Shown: piece by piece, positions 1,009 to 15,283 of the stretch
Layout of the letters: every line of letters begins with the position of its first letter
How positions within the stretch are numbered: position 1 is the first letter of the stretch
DNA from: a virus
Direction: 5' to 3' (one strand)
DNA length: 21,315 nucleotides
Virus record (IMG/VR): IMGVR_UViG_3300046535_000777
Coordinates: 1-21,315 of that record
Program-made: the position numbers and the translations under genes
Notes under the pieces: generated by a model
Database searches by the model: none
Seen by the model: the letters and a program-made list of their open reading frames with translations, nothing else
What the model was told of the DNA's origin: nothing

Positions 1009-1190
1009 TCCATGTCTTTCTCTGCGACCACGCAGCGCACCACGACGCGGTTCCTGGAGGCCTCGCGCGCGGCTTTCGCCACCGCCTCGCAGGCTTCCAT
1101 GTTGGGCAGCTCCTGTATCGAGGCCGGCACGATCTGGTTGTCGACATAGGCCGGCCCCAGCGTCGCCATCACGAGCAGAAACACCTTCAT
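1005..1190 (-). CDS. Small exported protein with two cysteines
   Basis: This 61-residue protein begins MKVFLLVMATLGPA, a short hydrophobic N-terminus that looks like a signal peptide with cleavage near residue 14. The mature part would have two cysteines (C34 and C53), which could form a disulfide in the periplasm. The start at 1190 is chosen because its ATG overlaps the gcrA stop (ATGA) and AAGGTG lies about 8 bases upstream. An in-frame ATG two codons earlier is too close to that ribosome site. The long open frame extending upstream to 1721 is only a shadow of gcrA. I recognise no family; small periplasmic proteins of this kind are frequent in phages. Confidence 0.6.
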   Translation of the reverse strand: MKVFLLVMATLGPAYVDNQIVPASIQELPNMEACEAVAKAAREASRNRVVVRCVVAEKDME

Positions 1191-1639
1191 GTCCATTTCA
1201 CCTTGGTGTTTCCGGCCGCCCTCTCGGTGTGCTCGTTGCAGTAGGGCCGCCCGAGCAGCGCCGGGCCGCCGCAATAGCGATATGGCGGACGCGCCTCCAT
1301 CGGCCCCAGCGGCCATCGGCAGTCGCCCCAGCCGAGCTGGTAGATGTCCAGCCCGACCTCGGGCTGGCGCGGCGCGATCTCGGCTGCGATCGGCGCGTCG
1401 ACGCGGACCCTGATCATTTTTGCTTTCCCCCTGCTTTTGCGTGGTGTGTCCGATTGGTGCCGCGTCGGCAGGCCGAGCCTTGAGGCCTTGCCGATACAGG
1501 CATTCTTTGTCAGTTCGATGTTGAACGCCGCGGACATTTCCGCGGCGATCTTGCCGAACGACAGCGGCGGCTGCTGGCGGTGCAACTTGGTGAAGCAGAG
1601 TATCATGTCCGCGGTCCAGTCGTGGATGCCTTCCCTCAT
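1187..1639 (-). CDS. gcrA: GcrA-family cell-cycle regulator
   Basis: This is a 150-residue member of the GcrA family, a sigma70-binding transcription factor known only from Alphaproteobacteria, which acts at promoters carrying CcrM-methylated GANTC. Seen here: an N-terminal helix-turn-helix part (DWTADMI at 7-13) ending in the family block TKNACIGKASRLGL (44-57), a basic linker, and the C-terminal sigma-contact signatures CRWPLG (107-112) and YCGGPALLGRPYCNEH (122-137). Length is close to cellular GcrA (about 170), with a shortened linker. The start at 1639 has GAGGAG 8 bases upstream and overlaps the stop of the preceding mini-gene (ATGA). It sits in the leftward early operon, so it is probably made early. 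Inference: it reprograms host sigma70 promoters or the cell cycle in favour of the phage. The family call is strong. Confidence 0.9.
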   Translation of the reverse strand: MREGIHDWTADMILCFTKLHRQQPPLSFGKIAAEMSAAFNIELTKNACIGKASRLGLPTRHQSDTPRKSRGKAKMIRVRVDAPIAAEIAPRQPEVGLDIYQLGWGDCRWPLGPMEARPPYRYCGGPALLGRPYCNEHTERAAGNTKVKWT

Positions 1640-1788
1640 TCCATCGGCTCCTCGGGCGGCTGCGGCTTTGGTTTGCAGACGTGCTTGGCGCGGGCCAGTG
1701 CGTTGGTCGATACGACAGCACCGCAGGATGGGCACCGGCACAGGCCGGGACCGTGCGGGCGCCACCCTTCCTTGAGATACTGCTTCAT
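1636..1788 (-). CDS. Cys-rich mini-protein (50 aa), zinc-binding type
   Basis: This short gene fills the apparent gap between its two neighbours. It reads MKQYLKEGWRPHGPG, then CRCPSCG (C17, C19, C22) and KHVC (H36, C38), with a Pro/Glu tail, 50 residues in all. The Cys/His spacing suggests one small metal-binding knuckle. Support for it being real: its ATG overlaps the upstream stop (TCAT at 1785-1788) and its TGA overlaps the gcrA ATG (TCAT at 1636-1639), so it continues the ATGA chain exactly, and it carries the gcrA ribosome-binding site in its last codons. No family is recognised. It could be a nucleic-acid-binding or protein-inhibitor peptide. Confidence 0.65.
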   Translation of the reverse strand: MKQYLKEGWRPHGPGLCRCPSCGAVVSTNALARAKHVCKPKPQPPEEPME

Positions 1789-2178: not shown

Positions 2179-2501
2179 GGCGAGGGGTTCTCGTGCTTGC
2201 CGCCATTGAGGAACTTCTTGTGCGCCTCGACCACGTCGCGGCCGAACGCGCGGGTGCGGTCGTCCATGTCGTTGAGCATCCGCGCGTGCTCCTCCAGCTG
2301 GGCGCCGATGCCCTCGGCCAGCACCTTGACGCTTTCCAGGAGGTTCTGGGCCTCGGTGACCTGATCCTCGGCGGCCTTCACGAGCGAGGCGACGATCTGC
2401 TCGCCGATCGCCGTGAAGTCGTGCTTGGGACGCGGGATCGGCTTCATCAGTTTTGCCAGCTCGGCCTCGGCCTGTGCGGTGTACTTGTCCAGCGCGCTCA
2501 T
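2175..2501 (-). CDS. Helical hypothetical protein
   Basis: This 108-residue protein starts MSALDKYTAQAEAELAKLM. It is rich in Ala, Glu, Lys and Leu and predicted almost wholly helical. Residues about 35-100 have heptad-like spacing (AEDQVTEAQNLLESVKVLAEG, then EEHARMLNDMDDRTRAFG), so a coiled coil or helical bundle is likely. The start is well supported: GGAGGT lies 5 bases upstream and the ATG overlaps the stop of the preceding gene. The frame stays open upstream to 2855, but that part is the shadow of the next gene. No enzymatic motif is seen. Confidence 0.68.
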   Translation of the reverse strand: MSALDKYTAQAEAELAKLMKPIPRPKHDFTAIGEQIVASLVKAAEDQVTEAQNLLESVKVLAEGIGAQLEEHARMLNDMDDRTRAFGRDVVEAHKKFLNGGKHENPSP

Positions 2502-3013
2502 TTGCACCTCCAGCTCGACCCGGTGACGACCTTGTGCATGTGGTTGCGTGCGCAGATGTCGATCTTCATGTTGGCCCGGCGCGAGAACTTGCGCAGATCT
2601 TCCATGTTGAGATCCGCCTGCCCCACTGGTCGCGGTACTGGCGCCGTCGTCACCGCGATCTTCTCGGTCTGCACCACGGTCGAGAACGGCGTTTCCTTCG
2701 ACAGATCGATCATGCGGTTGTTGCCGACCATGCTGTTGCCATTGAGCTGGAACGCGCGTTTCAGTGCCCATGCCTTGACCTCGTCGCTGGGGGTGTCGGG
2801 AAAGAAGTAGGCGGTCTGGTCGTCGTCCACCTCGGGCACGACCGCGGGCTGCCATAGCGGCGTGAACTGCGGATTGGCCGGATCGGCGACCTGCGCCTTC
2901 TGCGCCGCGGTCAGGCCGTTGGTGGTCTGGCCGCGGGCGTGGGTAGTTATCAACAGGAAAATTCCAAGGGCTATCAGGGATACCCCTGTCGCGATCGGGT
3001 TCTTGATGGTCAT
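2498..3013 (-). CDS. Membrane-anchored or secreted protein with DPxNPQF motif
   Basis: This 171-residue protein has an N-terminal hydrophobic segment (about residues 9-24, VSLIALGIFLLITTHA) after a lysine, so it is exported or membrane-anchored with the bulk outside the cytoplasm. Residues 33-52 (GLTAAQKAQVADPANPQFTP) closely resemble a stretch in the Pro/Gly-rich virion protein at 15280-16914. The C-terminal half is mixed alpha/beta, ending with cysteines near CARNHMHK and SSWRCK. The ATG at 3013 overlaps the stop of the HTH gene (ATGA) and GAGAG lies upstream. No known family is recognised. A role at the cell envelope, such as superinfection exclusion, is only a guess. Confidence 0.68.
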   Translation of the reverse strand: MTIKNPIATGVSLIALGIFLLITTHARGQTTNGLTAAQKAQVADPANPQFTPLWQPAVVPEVDDDQTAYFFPDTPSDEVKAWALKRAFQLNGNSMVGNNRMIDLSKETPFSTVVQTEKIAVTTAPVPRPVGQADLNMEDLRKFSRRANMKIDICARNHMHKVVTGSSWRCK

Positions 3014-3252
3014 CTTTGTCTCTCTATCGTTGTGATGGATCTGGTGCGGACGGCCTTGGTCTTGCCGTCCATGTAGGCATAGACGCGGTCGATGGTGGTT
3101 ATTCTCGGGATCTTGCCCTCCTCTACTCGTGAAATGAAATGGCCGTCGCCCGCGGCCTGAACGCCGAAGGCGGTGCGATCGATGCCGACCCGCGCGCGAT
3201 ACGCCTCGATGTCAGCGAGCAGCCTGGCTGCAACAGGATGTAATTTCATCAT
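3010..3252 (-). CDS. HTH-type phage regulator, first gene of leftward operon
   Basis: This is an 80-residue protein. The segment LLADIEAYRARVGIDRTAFG, followed by GDGHFISRVEEGKIPRITTIDRVYAYM, is the pattern of a small XRE-like helix-turn-helix protein common in Rhizobiales genomes and phages. The start is ATG at 3252 (a second ATG follows directly; a TTG lies two codons upstream). No Shine-Dalgarno is seen. A promoter-like -10 lies so close that the transcript could begin at or next to the ATG, i.e. leaderless, as known for lambda cI from its maintenance promoter. It is transcribed away from the palindrome at 3282-3295, which is its most likely operator. A CI- or Cro-like role is inference. 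Confidence 0.75.
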   Translation of the reverse strand: MMKLHPVAARLLADIEAYRARVGIDRTAFGVQAAGDGHFISRVEEGKIPRITTIDRVYAYMDGKTKAVRTRSITTIERQR

Positions 3253-3259
3253 GAGCAAA

Positions 3260-3340: not shown

Positions 3341-3517
3341 ATGCAGATCATCCACTTCCCCGACAGCGGCGACACGGTCCAGATGGACCGCACCGCGGCA
3401 GGCGTCTACGTCGCCCGCCTCATTCTGGACGACGGCGAGAACTCGCCGGAGTATGGAACCGGCGACACCGAGATGTCGGCGATCGCCGACCTCGTCGAAG
3501 CACTGGCAGGAGAATAG
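3341..3517 (+). CDS. Small acidic protein, first gene of rightward operon
   Basis: This 58-residue protein reads MQIIHFPDSGDTVQMDRT and ends ADLVEALAGE. It starts at an ATG with AGGAG at the right distance, about 25 bases downstream of the predicted rightward -10 box, so it is probably the first gene expressed in that direction. It is acidic, predicted beta-rich first and helical at the end. The next gene begins two bases after its stop, with the shared AGGAGA ribosome site inside its last codons. No family is recognised. Confidence 0.65.
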   Translation: MQIIHFPDSGDTVQMDRTAAGVYVARLILDDGENSPEYGTGDTEMSAIADLVEALAGE

Positions 3518-3519
3518 AA

Positions 3520-3801
3520 TTGCAGATCCCCACCACCTACCTATCGCTGCACGACGTCACCGCGCTCAAGGCCGCGGCCCTGACCACGCTCGACACGCCG
3601 CTGGTGCTGTCGATCGAGACGCCGCACGGCGGCATGCAGATCAGCCTGTACCTGCGCGATGTCGAGGCCGCCAAGATCGAGCGCATCGCCTGTGCCGTCA
3701 ACGCGATCCTGAAGGAACCGGAGCAGCCGAAGATCGCCTGCCAGATCGAGGCCGCCGCCTACAAGGCGTACGACGACTATTACAAGAAGGCTGCCGAATG
3801 A
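3520..3801 (+). CDS. Hypothetical protein with TTG start
   Basis: This 93-residue protein begins at TTG 3520-3522 with AGGAGA about 5 bases upstream, so the rare start codon is well supported. It reads LQIPTTYLSLHDVTALKAAA, has a beta-like middle (GGMQISLYLRDVEAAKIERIA) and a Lys/Tyr-rich helical C-terminus (YKAYDDYYKKAAE). It is soluble, with no signal or membrane segment. The TGA overlaps the ATG of the next mini-gene (ATGA at 3798-3801). No family is recognised. Confidence 0.68.
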   Translation: MQIPTTYLSLHDVTALKAAALTTLDTPLVLSIETPHGGMQISLYLRDVEAAKIERIACAVNAILKEPEQPKIACQIEAAAYKAYDDYYKKAAE

Positions 3802-3896
3802 ATTACGACCTGACCTATATCGTCGCCGCCACGCTTACGGTGGCCTGCCTGATCATGATCTACGCCTGCGTCGTCGCTGAGTTGAGGGCGCCATGA
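3798..3896 (+). CDS. 32-aa single-span membrane mini-protein
   Basis: MNYDLTYIVAATLTVACL followed by IMIYACVVAELRAP makes one clear membrane helix (about residues 7-27) with almost nothing on either side. Both ends are ATGA overlaps with the neighbouring genes (3798-3801 and 3893-3896), which argues strongly that it is translated although it is short. Mini membrane proteins in phage early operons can block superinfection or modulate a host membrane protein; no evidence selects among these. Confidence 0.6.
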   Translation: MNYDLTYIVAATLTVACLIMIYACVVAELRAP

Positions 3897-4156
3897 GAAG
3901 CCGAATGCTGGAGGACATCGGCAACCACTTCTCCGATCGCGTCGTCGACCTGATCGTCGACACGCTCGACACCTGCCGCCTCATGGACGTGCCCTACAAG
4001 GACGCCAAGTCGATGGTCGCCGCCGTCGTGGCGGCGCATCTGGCGGAAACCTGCTTGGTGTTCCGAATGTCACAGGAAGATTTCCTGAAGCTGGCCGAGG
4101 TTGCCTACCAGCGCCACGCAGGCGCGCGGCGCAAGGCACCGCGTCGTACCCAGTAG
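3893..4156 (+). CDS. Hypothetical helical protein, last gene of rightward operon
   Basis: This 87-residue protein begins MRSRMLEDIGNHFSDRVVDL, is helical throughout, and ends in a strongly basic tail (HAGARRKAPRRTQ) that could contact nucleic acid. Its ATG overlaps the stop of the mini membrane protein. GAGGG lies upstream within that gene. The gene ends at TAG 4154-4156, two bases before a strong hairpin, so it closes the rightward operon. No family is recognised. Confidence 0.65.
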   Translation: MRSRMLEDIGNHFSDRVVDLIVDTLDTCRLMDVPYKDAKSMVAAVVAAHLAETCLVFRMSQEDFLKLAEVAYQRHAGARRKAPRRTQ

Positions 4157-4260: not shown

Positions 4261-4569
4261 ATGATGACGGTATTTCTGATGAACGGCGGAACCCTCGACG
4301 CGGTCGGGATCCTGCCGCTGTGGCTCGACCCGGAAGATCCGCGGCCTGCCAAGGAACAGCTGGATGAGCACTACCAGCACGGCGGCGGCTGGCAGCCGTT
4401 CGCAGGCTTCAAGCTGATGAAGGACAGCAGCATCAAGTATCCGGGCGACCCGGCGCACAAGCCGCTCGCCATGATGAAGCTGCGCGACGAGGTGATACTG
4501 ATCTACCGGCATGCGTGGGTGCTGATCCTGCAGAAGGGCGGCAGCTTCGAGATCTGCCGGATGGACTAA
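4261..4569 (+). CDS. Hypothetical protein, 102 aa
   Basis: It begins MMTVFLMNGGTLDAVGILPLW; either of the two first ATGs could be the start, with GGAAGG about 12 bases before the first. The protein is mixed alpha/beta, Trp- and Tyr-containing, has no signal peptide, and ends LILQKGGSFEICRMD. It stands alone between a terminator-like hairpin and the PEP-CTERM gene, on the same strand as the latter. After its stop, GCCCGCGCGGGC (4572-4583) is self-complementary but has too little loop to call a terminator. No family is recognised. Confidence 0.6.
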   Translation: MMTVFLMNGGTLDAVGILPLWLDPEDPRPAKEQLDEHYQHGGGWQPFAGFKLMKDSSIKYPGDPAHKPLAMMKLRDEVILIYRHAWVLILQKGGSFEICRMD

Positions 4570-4631: not shown

Positions 4632-5285
4632 ATGTTTAAATCACTGCTGGCTGTTTTTGCTTTGTTCGCGCTGGCCGGGGCCGCCCGCGCCGACGTCGTC
4701 CTCGCCACCAAGCTGAGTGGCACCGGCGACAACGTGGTGTTCAACTCCTTGAGTGGCACGCAGGCGCTCGGCGCACTCAACGACCCCAAGAGCCACAACG
4801 ACGTGGTCCGCTTCGATAACCTCGGCCCCACGGTTTTTTCAGCCGCGGCTGACGGCAACGACATCAAGATCACCGGCACCAACGACCTTGAGGTTCAGGT
4901 GTTCGACAGCACCAATACCAATGTGGTCGGCACCGTCGAGCAGGTGTTCTCGCTGACCGGCGACGGCACCGTCAAGCTGTTCGTGCAGGCCAGCGACAAG
5001 TTCGGCGTAGCCGAGGCCCTCAAGACCTTCACCCTTGACCCGCTCAAGAACGGCCAGAACGGCTTCACGCTGACCGCCAGCAACGGCGAGGTGATGACCT
5101 CGCTGATCATCTTCGACACCAACGGCAACATCAGCGACTTCGAGCATTACCGCATCGACGTAGCCCCGCTGACCTCGGCGGTGCCGGAAGCCTCGACATG
5201 GGCCATGATGCTGCTCGGCTTCGCCGGTGTCGGCCTGCTGGGCCTGCGGCGCCGCCGCGGCGGGCAGGCGTTCCGCCTTGCCTGA
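4632..5285 (+). CDS. PEP-CTERM exported protein (exosortase substrate type)
   Basis: This 217-residue protein has a signal peptide MFKSLLAVFALFALAGAARA (1-20), a beta-rich, Asn/Asp/Thr/Gly-rich body (about 21-180), and a classic PEP-CTERM tail: VPEASTW (184-190), a hydrophobic span to about 205, then RRRR (206-209). In the known family this tail is recognised and processed by an exosortase in Gram-negative bacteria that make exopolysaccharide, and the protein ends at the cell surface or in the matrix. The start at 4632 fits the signal peptide; an in-frame GTG four codons earlier would add residues before it. It is the only gene here of clearly cellular surface type, flanked by hairpins on both sides, so it looks like a moron carried for the benefit of the infected host. 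What the body binds is unknown. Confidence 0.85.
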   Translation: MFKSLLAVFALFALAGAARADVVLATKLSGTGDNVVFNSLSGTQALGALNDPKSHNDVVRFDNLGPTVFSAAADGNDIKITGTNDLEVQVFDSTNTNVVGTVEQVFSLTGDGTVKLFVQASDKFGVAEALKTFTLDPLKNGQNGFTLTASNGEVMTSLIIFDTNGNISDFEHYRIDVAPLTSAVPEASTWAMMLLGFAGVGLLGLRRRRGGQAFRLA

Positions 5286-5330: not shown

Positions 5331-5376
5331 CGGCTGGATCATTGCCTTTGCACTGGACCAGACGCGCAACCACTAG
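5299..5376 (+). CDS. Possible 25-aa membrane mini-protein (doubtful)
   Basis: The short frame ATG 5299 to TAG 5376 encodes MAAACAAAFIVGWIIAFALD then QTRNH, a plausible single membrane helix. A TTG at 5278 would add seven residues. Its TAG and the amidase TAG on the other strand share the palindrome CTAG (5373-5376). Against it, the Ala-rich start is simply what the GGC/GCC hairpin encodes, and no convincing ribosome site precedes it. Confidence 0.3.
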   Translation: MAAACAAAFIVGWIIAFALDQTRNH

Positions 5377-6326
5377 GGGTGCGGGAAGATTACCTCGACC
5401 TCGTCGTCCGTCTCCAGCCCGAGATCCGCGAGTAGTCCCGGCGACAGGTCGGCCACGCGTCCGGTGTTCTCGTTCGGACCCCAGTCGGCCGGGAAGGCGG
5501 CCATTTCCGCTCCGGTCGAAGGCACCCTCACCAGCGCGATGCCTTCTGCCAGCATGCTCTTGGGCGTGACGTCGTAATCCCAGCGGCAGGCGATGTAGTG
5601 AACATACGGGTTCAGCCGCCGCGCCAGACCTGAGCTGCCGGACGGCTGGTAGGGCAGGAACAGATGCTGGTTGTCGGCGGTGATGTCGAAGTGCAGCGCC
5701 AGTCCCTCGTCCGGCGTCACGCCGGTGTCGTCCGGCCCGCCGAAATAGCTGCAGGTGCCGATTGTGCGGAACAGCGCGCGGCCGCCCGGTGGCTCGAAGA
5801 TGTCCTCGCCGTCGTCGCCGCCTGCCACGTCGGCAAGGGCATCGCAGATCGCCTCGAAATTCTCGTGGTACAGATTGGCGTCGGCAAGGCTGTCCACGAA
5901 GCAGATTTCCAGCAGTACACAGGGTTCTGAAGTTTGTGACAGCACGAAAAGGTCGGTTCTCTGCTTGGCGCCCCTGTCTATGAAGCCGCCGCCTGACGCG
6001 ATCGCGGCCGACAGTTTTGCCGCCAGCGCCTGCTGGCTGTAGTAGAGCACCTCGCAGCCCATCGGCTTGGCGGTTTCCACATAGGCGTTCAGGTGGACCG
6101 AGATGTCCAGATCCCGCGCGTGGCTGTTATGCCAGTCGACGATGCGGTTGAGGTTTTCGTTCTGCGACGTGCTGACCGTGTCGTGGTAGGTCATCACCTC
6201 GTGGCCGCGGTCGCGCAGATCGATGGCGAGCTGGTTGACGACGCGGGTGGCCTCGGTGACTTCGTTGAGGATGCCGGACGCGCCTTGGCACTCGGTGGAG
6301 TGGCCACTGGAAATTGCTATTCTCAT
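5373..6326 (-). CDS. Endolysin: N-acetylmuramoyl-L-alanine amidase with barrel-like C-terminal domain
   Basis: This is a 317-residue lysis enzyme. Residues 1-168 match the zinc-dependent Amidase_3 family: SSGHS with H9, NEVTEA with E22, SVHLNA with H78 and LLEICFVD with the catalytic-type E140. It would cut the bond between N-acetylmuramic acid and L-alanine of peptidoglycan. Residues about 185-317 form a second domain; GTCSYFGG and the end GRVADLSPGLLADLGL...DEVEVIFP resemble the double-psi beta-barrel of RlpA-like proteins, which bind or cut peptidoglycan. There is no signal peptide, so export depends on the holin-like genes just upstream. It is the last gene of the late operon, starting two bases after the stop of the mini membrane protein. 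The amidase call is firm; the barrel call is moderate. Confidence 0.88.
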   Translation of the reverse strand: MRIAISSGHSTECQGASGILNEVTEATRVVNQLAIDLRDRGHEVMTYHDTVSTSQNENLNRIVDWHNSHARDLDISVHLNAYVETAKPMGCEVLYYSQQALAAKLSAAIASGGGFIDRGAKQRTDLFVLSQTSEPCVLLEICFVDSLADANLYHENFEAICDALADVAGGDDGEDIFEPPGGRALFRTIGTCSYFGGPDDTGVTPDEGLALHFDITADNQHLFLPYQPSGSSGLARRLNPYVHYIACRWDYDVTPKSMLAEGIALVRVPSTGAEMAAFPADWGPNENTGRVADLSPGLLADLGLETDDEVEVIFPHP

Positions 6327-8623: not shown

Positions 8624-10237
8624 CTATTGATCCTCGTAGTCTATGGTTACGGGAGGCAACGGATGTCCAGCCTGCTGCACGCCGATCTGTGCAGCTGTTC
8701 GAGCTACTTCGTCGCGATAAGCCTTGGTCGAGATCGACGATGGCCCTGTGCCGAACGGAACCGACATCGATGTCGGTGGCGGCAGCTGGCCAGCCATGTA
8801 GGCTTGCGAGTATGGCGCGTTGGCGCGGATGATGTTGTCAGCGGTATTGACCGCGCGCCGCGTCAGTGCCGTAGAGGCGGCGTTGGAGGCGACGCCCGCG
8901 CCCGCGCCGAGCGCCATCGGTACGATCCCGCCTCCGAGAGTTCCGGTGGCGAGCGGCGCCACCAGCGACATCAGGCTTGGTTTTGCCGTGCCGGACAGCG
9001 TGCCTGCAATGCGCAGCGCGCCCTCGCCGATCGACGGCGCGGTCGTGACGCCCTCGACGGCGGCGCGCTCGTCGGGTTTCATAAAACGTGAGGCTTTATC
9101 GCTCTTGGTCCAGTTGCGGAGCACGTCGCGGACTTCGCCACCTTCGTCGAGGTACGGCAGCAGCGGGTTCTTCTGCTTGGCTGTCAGCTGCGCCGCAGCT
9201 ACGCGGTCACGCAGCTCCGAGCTGGTACTGGCCGCACGGTAGTTGGCGTTGGCGTCCTGCAGCATCTCGCCTGCGGTTCTGGCCTGCGGCTGTCCCGGTA
9301 TGGCCAGCGCCTGCCCGTTGCCATACAGCAGCGCACCCGGCGGTGGACGGCTCAGGAACTGATCGATCGCATCGCGCGCTACGCCTGCGCTGTGTCCTTC
9401 ATCTCCGCCGCTTATCTTGCCAAGTGCCTTGCGAACCGTGTGTAACGCGCCCGGCGTGGCGGGCAGGCTGTCGAGCGTGTCGAGGATCTGGTGTGTCTCT
9501 ACGGCTCCGACCTTGTCGGACCGGGAATAGTTGTTGCGCAAATCGTCCTTGATGCCCTGCTTCAGTGTCTGCACCGCCTGCGGGTCGAACGGCGAGGTCT
9601 TGGCCAGCGCCTTGTAGCCCGCGTCGGCGGCATTGGCGATCTCTTCCTGTGGAGCGGGCAGGATCTTTGGAGCCAGCGGCCTGATGGCGTTAGGCAGCCT
9701 GTCGTTGACCCAGCGACCTGCGGAGACGGCGGCCTGACCGATCGGGTTCAGGATGCTGCCGAGCACCGGACCCGCCGCGCCTACCGCGCCGCCGACCTTC
9801 ATGGCTGTCGGATCGCCGCCGCTGCGCACATAGGCGTCGGTCGCGCCGGTGATGCCACCGACGCCGGTCTGGCCGAGCATGGTGGAGCCGCCGAACGCCC
9901 ACGGCACCGCGCGTGCCACCGGCACCGTGCCGACAAGTGACCCGGCGACACCACCGGCGGCGCTGGCGACGGGGTGCTCGGCCTGCTGCCGGGCGGCGTC
10001 GCCACGGATCTGGTTGTAGACATCGCTATAGGGTTGCCCCGTCACGAGGGCCTTTGGTGCCGCCAGTATGGCGTCCATGCCCTTGTCTACTGCTGGCCCC
10101 AGCACCGGCAGGAAGCTGGAGCCGATGCCGCGCACCGAGGCGTCCATGCCCTCGCGAAAGCCGTGCAGCGTGTCGGCCCAGCTGCCGCCTGCAGGCGGCG
10201 CGGCTTTGGGGTCGTCCTCGTAGACGATGTCGACCAT
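8624..10237 (-). CDS. Internal virion (ejection-type) protein, Gly/Ala-rich
   Basis: This 537-residue protein has two long Gly/Ala-rich, weakly hydrophobic regions with GxxxG-like spacing (AGGVAGSLVGTVPVARAV early on; LATGTLGGGIVPMALGAGAG near residue 430) separated by a helical polar middle (DDLRNNYSRSDKVGAVETHQ). This composition is typical of podovirus ejection or pilot proteins that enter the host envelope with the DNA and build a channel. It sits between another large internal-type protein and the tail fibre. The ATG shares one base with the upstream stop (TGATG at 10235-10239). There is no recognised catalytic domain and no transglycosylase motif. The role rests on context and composition. 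Confidence 0.62.
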   Translation of the reverse strand: MVDIVYEDDPKAAPPAGGSWADTLHGFREGMDASVRGIGSSFLPVLGPAVDKGMDAILAAPKALVTGQPYSDVYNQIRGDAARQQAEHPVASAAGGVAGSLVGTVPVARAVPWAFGGSTMLGQTGVGGITGATDAYVRSGGDPTAMKVGGAVGAAGPVLGSILNPIGQAAVSAGRWVNDRLPNAIRPLAPKILPAPQEEIANAADAGYKALAKTSPFDPQAVQTLKQGIKDDLRNNYSRSDKVGAVETHQILDTLDSLPATPGALHTVRKALGKISGGDEGHSAGVARDAIDQFLSRPPPGALLYGNGQALAIPGQPQARTAGEMLQDANANYRAASTSSELRDRVAAAQLTAKQKNPLLPYLDEGGEVRDVLRNWTKSDKASRFMKPDERAAVEGVTTAPSIGEGALRIAGTLSGTAKPSLMSLVAPLATGTLGGGIVPMALGAGAGVASNAASTALTRRAVNTADNIIRANAPYSQAYMAGQLPPPTSMSVPFGTGPSSISTKAYRDEVARTAAQIGVQQAGHPLPPVTIDYEDQ

Positions 10238-12021
10238 CAGCGTCTGATCCTAGCTCGTCGTCCATTGATCATGATCGGCGTGCCGTCTGGCAGGTTGGAA
10301 GCCTTGGCCGCCTCCTCAGTGGCGAAACTTGCCGGGCCGCCACCGGGCAGCGCGATGCCGGGCATTGCGTTCGGAACGTCATACACGCGCCGCAGGCGTT
10401 CCTCGCCCTGCTGGCCTTTCAGCATGGTGTCCATGTTGTCGCGGTGCTCGTTCAGCGCAGCCAGTCCCGATCGTTTGGCAATGTCGATCAACTGACGCGC
10501 TGATTTCTCGTTCAGCGTATAGTCCGCGCCAGCCATCATGAAGCCGAGCTTGGTGTCGTTGTTGGAAACCTGCGGCCCTGCATAGGAACGGATCGCCTGC
10601 GCCGCGACCGGCCCGAGCGATGTCTTATAGGTCTCGGTGGCGGCCACGATGCGCGCGGCCTCCTGATCGCCGGTGGCCGCCTTGGCCTTGTACCACAACA
10701 GCTTGGCAGGGGCGTCGATGCCGAACAGCGTACCGGCGTTCAAGGCCGCCTCGGCGTTGCCAAGCCCTTCCAGCGCGCCCACCGCGGACTGCGCCTTGTC
10801 CTTGCTTTCCTTGAGGTAGGTATGGATGTGCGGAGGCAGATTGCCGTATGCTCCCTTGAGCTGGTCCTCCTCCGCCTGTTTCTGCGTACTGTACTTCTCC
10901 TGCGTCAGCTTTTCCTTGGCCATCGGCAGGCCTTGGTTGGCGGTCAGGAAATTCTGCATCTTCTCGTTATGCTGCGCGAGATCGCTCTGATACTTGCGCT
11001 GGTTCTCGGCGTCCTTGAAGGCGCGCCGCTTCTCCCACTCCGCCGCCTGCGCCTCCAGACCGTTGATGATAACCGGGTCGTCACCCATCTGCTTGCGGCG
11101 CAAGATCTCAGTGATCAGGTACTGGTGCCGCGGATCTTCCTGCGTCCGCTTCGGCAGCTCCGGCGGTATCGGCTTGTCGTAGACACCGGGAGCCTGATTT
11201 GGCAGCGGCGCAGACGTCTGCGGCGTCACCGGCGTGTCGGGGCCAATCTGTGACGCGGGCGGCCGCGGGCGCGGGTTCGGGTACTGGAACGGCTGCTGGC
11301 CGTTCTCCGCCAGTTGAACCGACTGGATGTCGGTCGGGATCGGGCGGTTCGTCTCAAGTGGGGAACCAAGGAGCGCGGGGTCCGGGCTGATAGTTGAGGG
11401 CGCGGAGGCGGGCGATTGGCCCGCCAGCATAGGGTTTGGTTGCGACCCTCCCTGCCGCGTCTGCATGAGCTGGGCGATGCTGGCGCGTACCGCGGCGGAA
11501 TTAGGCTGTTCCGTGGGCACGCCCATCGGCGGCGCGTCGCTCATGGTGCCGGTGTCGGCCGAGGCCATCTGCGGGGCGCCGCCCGCGTCCTGAACAGGCG
11601 GTAGGGCGTCCGCTGGCTGGTAGGCATCGTTGTTGGCTGCGGCCTGCAGCAGCGGCGCGGCCGCGGCGGGAACTGCCGAGGCGTCTGCCGTCGCCGCCGG
11701 CGCAATCGTCGGCATCTGTGGCGAGGCGTCCGATGTCTGGACTGACGGTGTGGCTGACGCGTCAGGGCCGGGCGCTGGCCCCGCGGCGGGACGCCGAGCT
11801 TCGATCATGCGCTGGGCCGCGATCATCTGGTTCATTTGTGACCGCTCGCCGAGCGCGTCACCGATCGCGGTCAGGCCCTCGCCGACATTCTTGGGGTAGC
11901 CGCGACGCGCAGCCTGTTTCATCATCGTGTCGGCGATCTTCTGCCGCAACAAAAGTTGCTGGTAGCTGGCAGGATCGTTGCCATCGAAGGCACTTGTAAG
12001 ATTGTCGAACGGTCCTGCCAT
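10237..12021 (-). CDS. Internal virion/ejection-type structural protein
   Basis: This is a 594-residue protein. The N-terminus (MAGPFDNLTSAFDGNDPASY, about 1-75) is helical with basic repeats. Residues about 75-290 are low-complexity Ala/Pro/Gln/Ser. A long helix follows (about 300-400), and then a globular part with GIDAPAKLLWYKAKAATGDQ and RSYAGPQVSNNDTKLGFM, as found in large phage structural proteins. The end, LPDGTPIMINGRRARIRR, is a short basic tail. Two starts are possible: ATG 12021 (TGATG overlap, AGGT 5 bases upstream), used here, or the adjacent GTG at 12024. It is large, without signal or enzyme motifs, and adjacent to a second ejection-type protein, so an internal core protein is the best guess. 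Confidence 0.62.
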   Translation of the reverse strand: MAGPFDNLTSAFDGNDPASYQQLLLRQKIADTMMKQAARRGYPKNVGEGLTAIGDALGERSQMNQMIAAQRMIEARRPAAGPAPGPDASATPSVQTSDASPQMPTIAPAATADASAVPAAAAPLLQAAANNDAYQPADALPPVQDAGGAPQMASADTGTMSDAPPMGVPTEQPNSAAVRASIAQLMQTRQGGSQPNPMLAGQSPASAPSTISPDPALLGSPLETNRPIPTDIQSVQLAENGQQPFQYPNPRPRPPASQIGPDTPVTPQTSAPLPNQAPGVYDKPIPPELPKRTQEDPRHQYLITEILRRKQMGDDPVIINGLEAQAAEWEKRRAFKDAENQRKYQSDLAQHNEKMQNFLTANQGLPMAKEKLTQEKYSTQKQAEEDQLKGAYGNLPPHIHTYLKESKDKAQSAVGALEGLGNAEAALNAGTLFGIDAPAKLLWYKAKAATGDQEAARIVAATETYKTSLGPVAAQAIRSYAGPQVSNNDTKLGFMMAGADYTLNEKSARQLIDIAKRSGLAALNEHRDNMDTMLKGQQGEERLRRVYDVPNAMPGIALPGGGPASFATEEAAKASNLPDGTPIMINGRRARIRR

Positions 12022-12278
12022 CACACACCTGCCCCTTGCGGCTGTAGCGCCGCCATCTGTCGTTGTCGTTCCGTTTCCTCGGCCTGCTGCTGTTGCATCA
12101 TGGCCTGTTGAGCCTGCGCATCGGCCTGCGCCTGCTGTTGCTGCGCGGCCTGCGCGGCCGCCTGCGCCGCGCGCTGCTGTTGCATCATTTTCTGCGCCAT
12201 GACCTGTTGGGCAATGCGTTTGCGCAGTTCAGCCTGCTGGTAGCCCAGCGCGGCAATGTCTTTTGGCACGTTTACCAT
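12021..12278 (-). CDS. Gln/Ala-rich coiled-coil small protein
   Basis: This 85-residue protein begins MVNVPKDIAALGYQQAELRK, followed by an almost unbroken Gln/Ala/Met helix (AQKMMQQQRAAQAAAQAAQQ) and a Glu/Arg segment. It is predicted to be one long helix or coiled coil. AAGG lies about 10 bases upstream of the ATG, which comes one base after the preceding stop. Placed between virion proteins, it is probably a minor structural or assembly peptide. The low complexity prevents family assignment. Confidence 0.65.
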   Translation of the reverse strand: MVNVPKDIAALGYQQAELRKRIAQQVMAQKMMQQQRAAQAAAQAAQQQQAQADAQAQQAMMQQQQAEETERQRQMAALQPQGAGV

Positions 12279-14028: not shown

Positions 14029-14507
14029 CAGGCGGCCTTGGCTTTCTCCGGCGCGTACAGCCGCCGGTCGCGTTGGTTGAACTTGTTGTCGTGCCACGCC
14101 TCGAACGTCAGCGTGCATATCACGCCGTTTTGGGTCGGCCCGAGCAGGCGCTCGATCGTCTTGAAGGCGTAGCCGATCGCGGACAGCACGCGCAGCAACG
14201 ACCTGTTTTCTTCGGCGACCCGCATCAGCACCATCTGGCAGCCGATTTCGAGGAACGGGTAATCGTAGATCCGGCGCAGCGTCTCGCTGGTCAGCCAGTA
14301 CTTGCCCGGCAGTGCAGCACCAGACATCTCGATCACGCCCGCTGCGGGGTCAAAATTATGATAGACGAGGCCAGCGATCAGCTTGCCGTCGTCGACAATT
14401 CCAATCGCCTTCGACGCCTTGGGAAAGCCGCGCTCGCGCACGGACGGGATCAGCACCGCGACGAAGTCGGCGACGAGTTGATCATGACCGTAGACGTAGT
14501 CGAGCAT
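14028..14507 (-). CDS. GNAT-type acetyltransferase
   Basis: This 159-residue protein has the order of a GNAT fold: beta strands IGIVDDGKLIAGLVYHNFD and GVIEMSGAAL, a helix with LTSETLRRIYDYPF, strand QMVLMRV, then the acceptor-side block EENRSLLRVLSAIGYAF typical of GNAT motif B, and a last strand ICTLTFEAW. GNAT enzymes move an acetyl group from acetyl-CoA to an amine of a protein, antibiotic or small molecule. The usual Q/RxxGxG/A pyrophosphate loop is not evident, so either the cofactor loop is diverged or the enzyme is atypical. The ATG at 14507 overlaps the cofE stop (TGATG); a GTG lies one codon earlier. Similar small acetyltransferases recur in phage structural operons; the substrate is unknown. 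Confidence 0.78.
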   Translation of the reverse strand: MLDYVYGHDQLVADFVAVLIPSVRERGFPKASKAIGIVDDGKLIAGLVYHNFDPAAGVIEMSGAALPGKYWLTSETLRRIYDYPFLEIGCQMVLMRVAEENRSLLRVLSAIGYAFKTIERLLGPTQNGVICTLTFEAWHDNKFNQRDRRLYAPEKAKAA

Positions 14508-15283
14508 CACACCATCCTGACCAGTTCCGGTGTCAATACACTTGGCCTGCGCAGCAGATCCGCGGCCTTGGCGCCGATCGAGCCGCGCCAGCTCAAACCC
14601 CGCATCAGCACAACCGGCGTGCCCTCGTCACTCTGTCCCATCACCAGCGAAGCAGCCGCGGCTATCTCGTCGGCACAGCCGGTAATGCTGGTCTGCAGTT
14701 CGCGTCCGAAGATGTCGGTCCGTCCGCGCAAATCGTCGAGCACCGGCAGACCGGCGGATCCGATCGCCACCCCGCACGCGCCGTTGCGCCATGCGCGGCT
14801 GACGGTGTCATTGATGACCACGGCAACCCGGGCGCCGAACTCGGCACAGATGCAGTCCCGCAGTGTCTCTGCGCTGGCGTCCGGGTCGACCGGCAACAGC
14901 AGCGCCATGTCGTGACCGGGCGGTCCGATATTGGACAGGTCGATGCCTGCGTTTGGCATCACGAAGCCGAGCCGGTGCTCGACCAGCAGCATGCCGGGTT
15001 TGGCCAGTACGATGGAAGTTGCCTCCGACAGCACCAGTTCGACCACGCGCGGATCTTTCTCGGTCCGTCGCGCCAGCTGCAGCGCGCGCCCGGACGGCAC
15101 CACCGTCGCGAGGTCAACCAGCCGTCCCTCGGCCTTGGACACGATCTTCTGCGCCAGCACGAAGATGTCGCCGTCGCGCGGCGCGATACCGGCGCGCCCC
15201 AGCCCGTCTGAAATAAGGCTGGCAAGGTCGTCGCCGCGCTCGACGCGCGGAATACCGGGTAATGTGTGAAGGACGACGCTCAT
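14507..15283 (-). CDS. cofE: F420-0:gamma-glutamyl ligase family protein (CofE)
   Basis: This is a full-length, 258-residue CofE domain. In the known family the enzyme adds L-glutamate to coenzyme F420-0 through gamma linkages, using GTP and a divalent metal. Motifs seen in order: GIPRVERGDDL (10-20), DGDIFVLAQKIVSKAEGR (37-54), KDPRVVEL (76-83), NAGIDLSNI (111-119), LLPVDPDASAETLR (129-142), VINDTVSRAWRNG (156-168), AIGSAG then RGRTDIFGREL (173-196), ADEIAAAASLVMGQ (204-217). The family consensus around DTxGRPWR is here DTVSRAWR, a change near the active site. There is no C-terminal nitroreductase domain such as in FbiB. It overlaps the upstream virion gene (ATGA) and the downstream GNAT gene (TGATG), so it is made with late proteins. 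Family assignment is very strong; that F420 is the real substrate is not shown. Confidence 0.9.
   Translation of the reverse strand: MSVVLHTLPGIPRVERGDDLASLISDGLGRAGIAPRDGDIFVLAQKIVSKAEGRLVDLATVVPSGRALQLARRTEKDPRVVELVLSEATSIVLAKPGMLLVEHRLGFVMPNAGIDLSNIGPPGHDMALLLPVDPDASAETLRDCICAEFGARVAVVINDTVSRAWRNGACGVAIGSAGLPVLDDLRGRTDIFGRELQTSITGCADEIAAAASLVMGQSDEGTPVVLMRGLSWRGSIGAKAADLLRRPSVLTPELVRMV

Follow-up and report, generated by a model that had tools for sequence, protein, structure and literature searches.

The known substrates of exosortase are matrix and surface proteins of cells, and T5 Llp, phi80 Cor and P22 SieA are phage-encoded envelope proteins of superinfection exclusion. PEP-CTERM proteins of cells are considered to depend on exosortase for their exit from the inner membrane (PMC1569441) and take part in floc formation and in the retention or attachment of exopolysaccharide (PMC9850573, PMC12188702). 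That one protein family can have alternative sorting tails is known from cells (PMC3237569). No paper on phage-encoded PEP-CTERM proteins was found in the open-access papers that the search covered. Here we describe a viral PEP-CTERM gene as one allele of a phage family that is widespread and has swappable sorting tails.

The window, by which we mean the whole stretch of DNA analysed, consists of 21,315 bases of IMG/VR virus record IMGVR_UViG_3300046535_000777. The gene and its surroundings comprise:

3010..3258, minus strand: small divergent ORF of 82 aa, weak match to phrog_7669
3341..4156, plus strand: small early-type ORFs (3341-3517, 3520-3801, 3893-4156) that run in the direction of the PEP-CTERM gene and lead up to it
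4261..4569, plus strand: 102-aa ORF just upstream of the PEP-CTERM gene, no family match, not at this place in contigs L086-L088
4632..5285, plus strand: phage PEP-CTERM gene, 217 aa, stop included, PF07589 and TIGR02595 over their cut-offs
4632..4691, plus strand: predicted Sec signal peptide, residues 1-20 (MFKSLLAVFALFALAGAARA), from the sequence pattern, with an N-terminal helix (3-14) in the model
4692..5177, plus strand: mature all-beta (jelly-roll-like) domain, about residues 21-182, ending in FEHYRIDV, from the AlphaFold model
5181..5282, plus strand: C-terminal PEP-CTERM sorting tail, residues 184-217, with VPEASTW, transmembrane helix 187-209, RRRR and the end FRLA
5373..6326, minus strand: endolysin (N-acetylmuramoyl-L-alanine amidase, Amidase_3), convergent neighbour, PF01520 71.8 bits, phrog_435

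The translation of ORF 4632-5285 begins with MFKSLLAVFALFALAGAARA followed by DVVL, ends with SAVPEASTWAMMLLGFAGVGLLGLRRRRGGQAFRLA before the stop, and has a domain of about 160 residues in between. The first-pass annotation had seen a signal peptide and a VPEASTW-span-RRRR tail in this one gene, which the translation and the family profiles bear out: on the tail (AVPEASTWAMMLLGFAGVGLLGLRRRRGGQAFRLA) the Pfam model PF07589 scores 26.2 bits against a gathering score of 20.7, and TIGR02595 scores 18.7 bits against a cut-off of 16. All three parts of the tail (motif, transmembrane helix and basic cluster) are present, the RRRR corresponding to residues 206-209 (positions 5247-5258) and the third residue of the PEP motif being Ala. 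The N-terminus resembles a signal peptide ending in ARA just ahead of D, as judged by eye from the pattern, and a similar N-terminus is found in nearly all relatives, so that this hallmark of PEP-CTERM proteins is recognised by pattern and conservation only. Two more specific models remain under their cut-offs, namely NF035944 for the PEPxxWA-CTERM subtype (28.9 bits, cut-off 35) and NF038126 for the FxDxF family (30.1 bits over residues 8-207, cut-off 50).

A scan with the single protein identified 18 viral loci. A profile scan made from an alignment identified 146 viral stretches encoding relatives, 80 of which were kept, all with E <= 1e-33. If loci are linked when they share 5 or more gene families, the 81 loci resolve into about 24 groups, of which three are large. 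The carrier phages have otherwise few genes in common, and the PEP-CTERM family is their most widely shared gene. No relatives were found among 50,697 records of cultured phages and 72,556 plasmid records. Matches in bacterial genomes nearly all cover the tail only; longer, weak full-length cellular relatives occur in Nitrobacter and Bradyrhizobium-type genomes. The family that the mature domain defines is phage-dominated. Its invariant positions are a G, K79, F106, S107, E153, F170, E171, H172 and R174. Between close phage relatives dN/dS of the mature domain amounts to 0.04-0.21, which indicates purifying selection on a working gene; diversifying selection as driver was considered and is not supported by these low values. 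Comparison of the window with its close relatives L087 and L088 gives a higher dN/dS of 0.46-0.60, hence constraint is less clear for the window allele itself. In one pair of loci (L001:1368-2018 and L004:1-660) the mature domain is identical while signal peptide and tail differ, both of the PEP type, which is a case of either recombination or assembly mosaic.

The genes around the PEP-CTERM gene are those of a phage, including a podovirus-type major capsid protein (NF033394, 261 bits), endolysin, helicase, a tail protein and S74 chaperones. By its capsid protein, the closest cultured relative is Rhizobium phage RHph_I3_18 (63%). The first-pass annotation had considered that the contig might be a chimera with bacterial DNA at 4.2-5.3 kb. 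PEP-CTERM was not known to occur outside cells, which gives contamination or chimeric assembly some prior appeal as an explanation of the gene. It is nevertheless contradicted by contigs L086-L088, independent contigs of other metagenomes, which have the PEP-CTERM gene in the same slot with the same neighbours, as well as by the family of 146 viral loci with relatives, close copies of which were not found in the bacterial genomes searched. We reject this explanation and leave it hardly any probability. The ORFs of 3341..4156 are 67-93% identical in L087 and L088, and the divergent ORF at 3010..3258 is a possible regulator at a divergent control region. A scan for promoters and terminators gave nothing over chance; the consensus used was that of sigma-70, which does not cover other promoter types.

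Several other genes of the window deserve mention. A homologue of the cell-cycle regulator GcrA (1187-1765, minus strand; PF07750, 54.8 bits) is consistent with an alphaproteobacterial host, GcrA being a regulator of alphaproteobacteria and their phages. The 171-aa protein encoded at 2498-3013 (minus strand), whose N-terminus is hydrophobic and whose C-terminal part has a C...C motif, lacks a family match and is a recurrent companion with relatives in about 20 carrier loci. Within the structural gene region, 14507-15283 (minus strand) encodes an F420-0:gamma-glutamyl ligase (CofE, PF01996, 252 bits) which adjoins a GNAT acyltransferase gene and has only one weak relative among the 50,697 phage records. 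The structural-region protein of 10237-12024 (minus strand) is 30-32% identical to its L087/L088 counterpart, where neighbours are 85-90% identical, and appears to be another fast-changing or exchanged gene.

Three types of tail are found on the one mature domain: in 58 rows we counted 27 PEP-CTERM tails, 27 tails with VPGPxxGAGLPG and four VPLPA-like tails, frequencies that are biased since the collection scans used short peptide patterns favouring conserved tails or the FEHYR motif. Types were assigned by regular expression, the VPLPA-like type being named by eye and matching no model; the VPGP form reads VPGPxxGAGLPGL...RRRR. On a tree of the mature domain only, tail type changes at least 10 times against a shuffled mean of 21.9, although this is a quick tree with many weak branches, and its well-supported branches force about 3 changes per main type. 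Exchange can be seen among close relatives of the window, as L087 and L088 have a VPGP tail where the window has PEP-CTERM: DNA identity is 83-92% in the flanks and 67-69% in the mature region, and the tails lack detectable similarity. Where a contig has two tailed genes, the tails are of matching type in 13 of 13 non-redundant cases, which was reached by 26 of 200,000 permutations, although some contigs are related and this is not a clean probability. Matched tails could be due to recombination or copying of tails within one phage instead of host-driven selection. Near the first gene, L096, L110, L111, L112, L119, L128, L129, L130, L136, L142 and L151 have another exported gene whose tail is of the same type, L110 having three tailed genes. 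The second tailed gene of L096 passes the FxDxF cut-off (NF038126, 76 against 50 bits).

The VPGP tail is a candidate for an undescribed sorting signal, a lead rather than a result. No NCBIfam model matches the three VPGP-tailed proteins compared (L112, L138 and L088) at E <= 0.5, and cellular proteins that look exported have this tail at their end in five genomes (G151, G166, G499, G531 and G571). Neither a PF09721 exosortase nor a rhombosortase over cut-off was detected in these five, two of which are fragmented assemblies, the matches in the other three being weaker; in contrast, six of seven genomes matching PEP-CTERM have an exosortase. Rhombosortase was rejected as the enzyme of the VPGP tail, given that the rhomboid matches were all below cut-off and also present in control genomes. 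It is conceivable, though somewhat doubtful, that phages fit one surface protein to their hosts by tail swap and that VPGPxxGAGLPG belongs to an undescribed sorting system of soil Hyphomicrobiales with an enzyme other than exosortase. If so, phage proteins would point to a missing sorting system.

The carriers are uncultured phages, probably of Bradyrhizobium-like hosts. The closest cellular relatives are found in exosortase-bearing Bradyrhizobium and Nitrobacter genomes: all four tested genomes that hold cellular relatives have an exosortase, and in Nitrobacter the relative lies on one contig with the gene for exosortase and further PEP-CTERM genes. Within the Bradyrhizobium-related family only nine of 297 genomes have an exosortase. 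One record, L023 (JAUEPE010000017.1), is titled Frankia sp. RB7, yet the genome is placed in the same family as Bradyrhizobium jicamae and contains an exosortase as well as numerous PEP-CTERM genes; the name of the organism seems to be mistaken. No exosortase was found in the window or in 50 carrier records, which are often incomplete so that this absence is only suggestive; the host's enzyme would then have to sort the protein.

Gene orientation across carriers suggests early or middle expression. The PEP-CTERM gene is on the same strand as helicase (20/20), exonuclease (10/10), DNA polymerase (10/13) and Erf (7/8), and on the opposite strand to endolysin (21 of 24; about 25 loci have an endolysin gene), S74 tail genes (13/13) and the GNAT gene (6/6). 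Sharing the strand of replication genes and opposing that of endolysin and tail genes, it would probably be expressed early.

Modelled by AlphaFold, the window protein (pLDDT 89) and a VPGP-tailed relative (pLDDT 91) are both all-beta with a C-terminal helix; in most of the window's mature domain pLDDT reaches 92-97. Among the top PDB matches by Foldseek for these two independent models, CBM29 occurs each time (E 1.5e-4 and 4.2e-4), and FlaA1 is also present; the CBM29- and CBM4-like matches of the window's mature domain are weak, with TM-scores of 0.3-0.43. The best match has E 1.5e-4 and probability 1.0, but TM-scores of 0.3-0.47 stay under the 0.5 required for a CBM29/CBM4 fold, so the fold family cannot be named and sugar binding by the mature domain is only hinted at by the model. 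A sequence search of solved structures gave nothing significant, and a BFVD fold search gave only low-TM matches to tail proteins.

Taken together, we give a probability of about 0.5 to the reading that this phage-borne family of exported proteins appears to borrow the host's C-terminal sorting machinery, with surface display leading to altered adsorption or superinfection exclusion. The product would be made early in infection, its signal peptide would direct passage across the inner membrane and its C-terminal helix would hold it in the membrane; in the PEP-CTERM version host exosortase would then cut the protein and pass it outward. The jelly-roll, possibly sugar-binding domain would thereby be exposed on the infected cell or on its exopolysaccharide and would there most likely alter the adsorption of other phages. 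The sequences themselves show the family, its tail, the phage context, selection, strand bias, tail swapping and matched tails; from these, export and cleavage by a host enzyme are inferred as likely, and so is action at the surface or envelope. Superinfection exclusion is the benefit that we prefer, albeit tentatively.

Lysogenic conversion, or alteration of the infected cell's surface or exopolysaccharide, for instance to block other phages, was the proposal of the first-pass annotation. Its surface part is supported, because a phage gene that has an exosortase-type signal and lies in an early-type region would most naturally act at the infected cell's envelope or exopolysaccharide; blocking of other phages may be a consequence. 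Lysogenic conversion would mean that lysogens make a protein for the surface or biofilm matrix that helps the host to attach or flocculate, in line with the cellular PEP-CTERM proteins acting in flocs and exopolysaccharide retention (PMC9850573, PMC12188702). Of 50 carrier records, 11 encode a tyrosine integrase, most members of one group of phages have an integrase, and the annotation of RHph_I3_18, closest among cultured phages by its capsid protein, lists integrase and repressor. As a general case this finds no support: 39 of the 50 carriers show no tyrosine integrase (many records are fragments, and the search covered tyrosine integrases only), most carriers have the gene among replication genes and not adjoining an integrase, and no prophage copy was found in the searches of bacterial genomes. 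Lysogenic conversion fits the integrase-bearing minority and is unlikely as the overall explanation.

The tail could also be a mere anchor of a periplasmic protein, involving no sorting enzyme, that for example counters phage DNA on its entry or takes part in assembling the envelope. The VPGP version on cellular proteins, in five genomes without detected exosortase or over-cut-off rhombosortase, would agree with this, but a mere anchor would not require the strong conservation of the motif ahead of the helix (VPEASTWAMM; VPGPxxGAGLPG), nor that two genes of one phage have the motif in common, and we regard it as improbable. Proximity to the endolysin gene, at about 0.1-4 kb in the window, L009, L010, L086-L088, L122 and L146, might suggest a helper of lysis or release acting on the envelope; this is very improbable given the opposite strands described above, the co-direction with replication genes and the many phages in which the gene is embedded among these. 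Sorting by the host's machinery followed by surface display remains the reading that we prefer. If it is true, viruses exploit the protein sorting of bacteria in order to act upon the infected cell's envelope, and the effect of PEP-CTERM proteins on phage adsorption becomes a testable question. A phage family with exchanged tails would moreover offer a way to find new sorting signals, and tail type would help to guess the host of a phage.

The window protein resembles the cellular PEP-CTERM proteins (PF07589/TIGR02595; NF035944) in having a signal peptide, a tripartite tail and a middle domain of the diverse sort found there; it differs in being carried by phages that lack an exosortase of their own and in scoring below the NF035944 cut-off. 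To the FxDxF family (NF038126) it has distant similarity along most of its length, short of the curated cut-off. Like Llp, Cor and SieA, which are small phage-made proteins sent to the host envelope during infection, it is proposed to act there, but where these have lipoprotein signals or membrane spans it carries a C-terminal sorting signal of the host. Finally, the families with alternative LPXTG, PEP-CTERM and GlyGly-CTERM tails (PMC3237569) have different tripartite tails across genomes, as has the phage family, whereas the latter switches tails within related phages and has tails that match between the genes of one phage.
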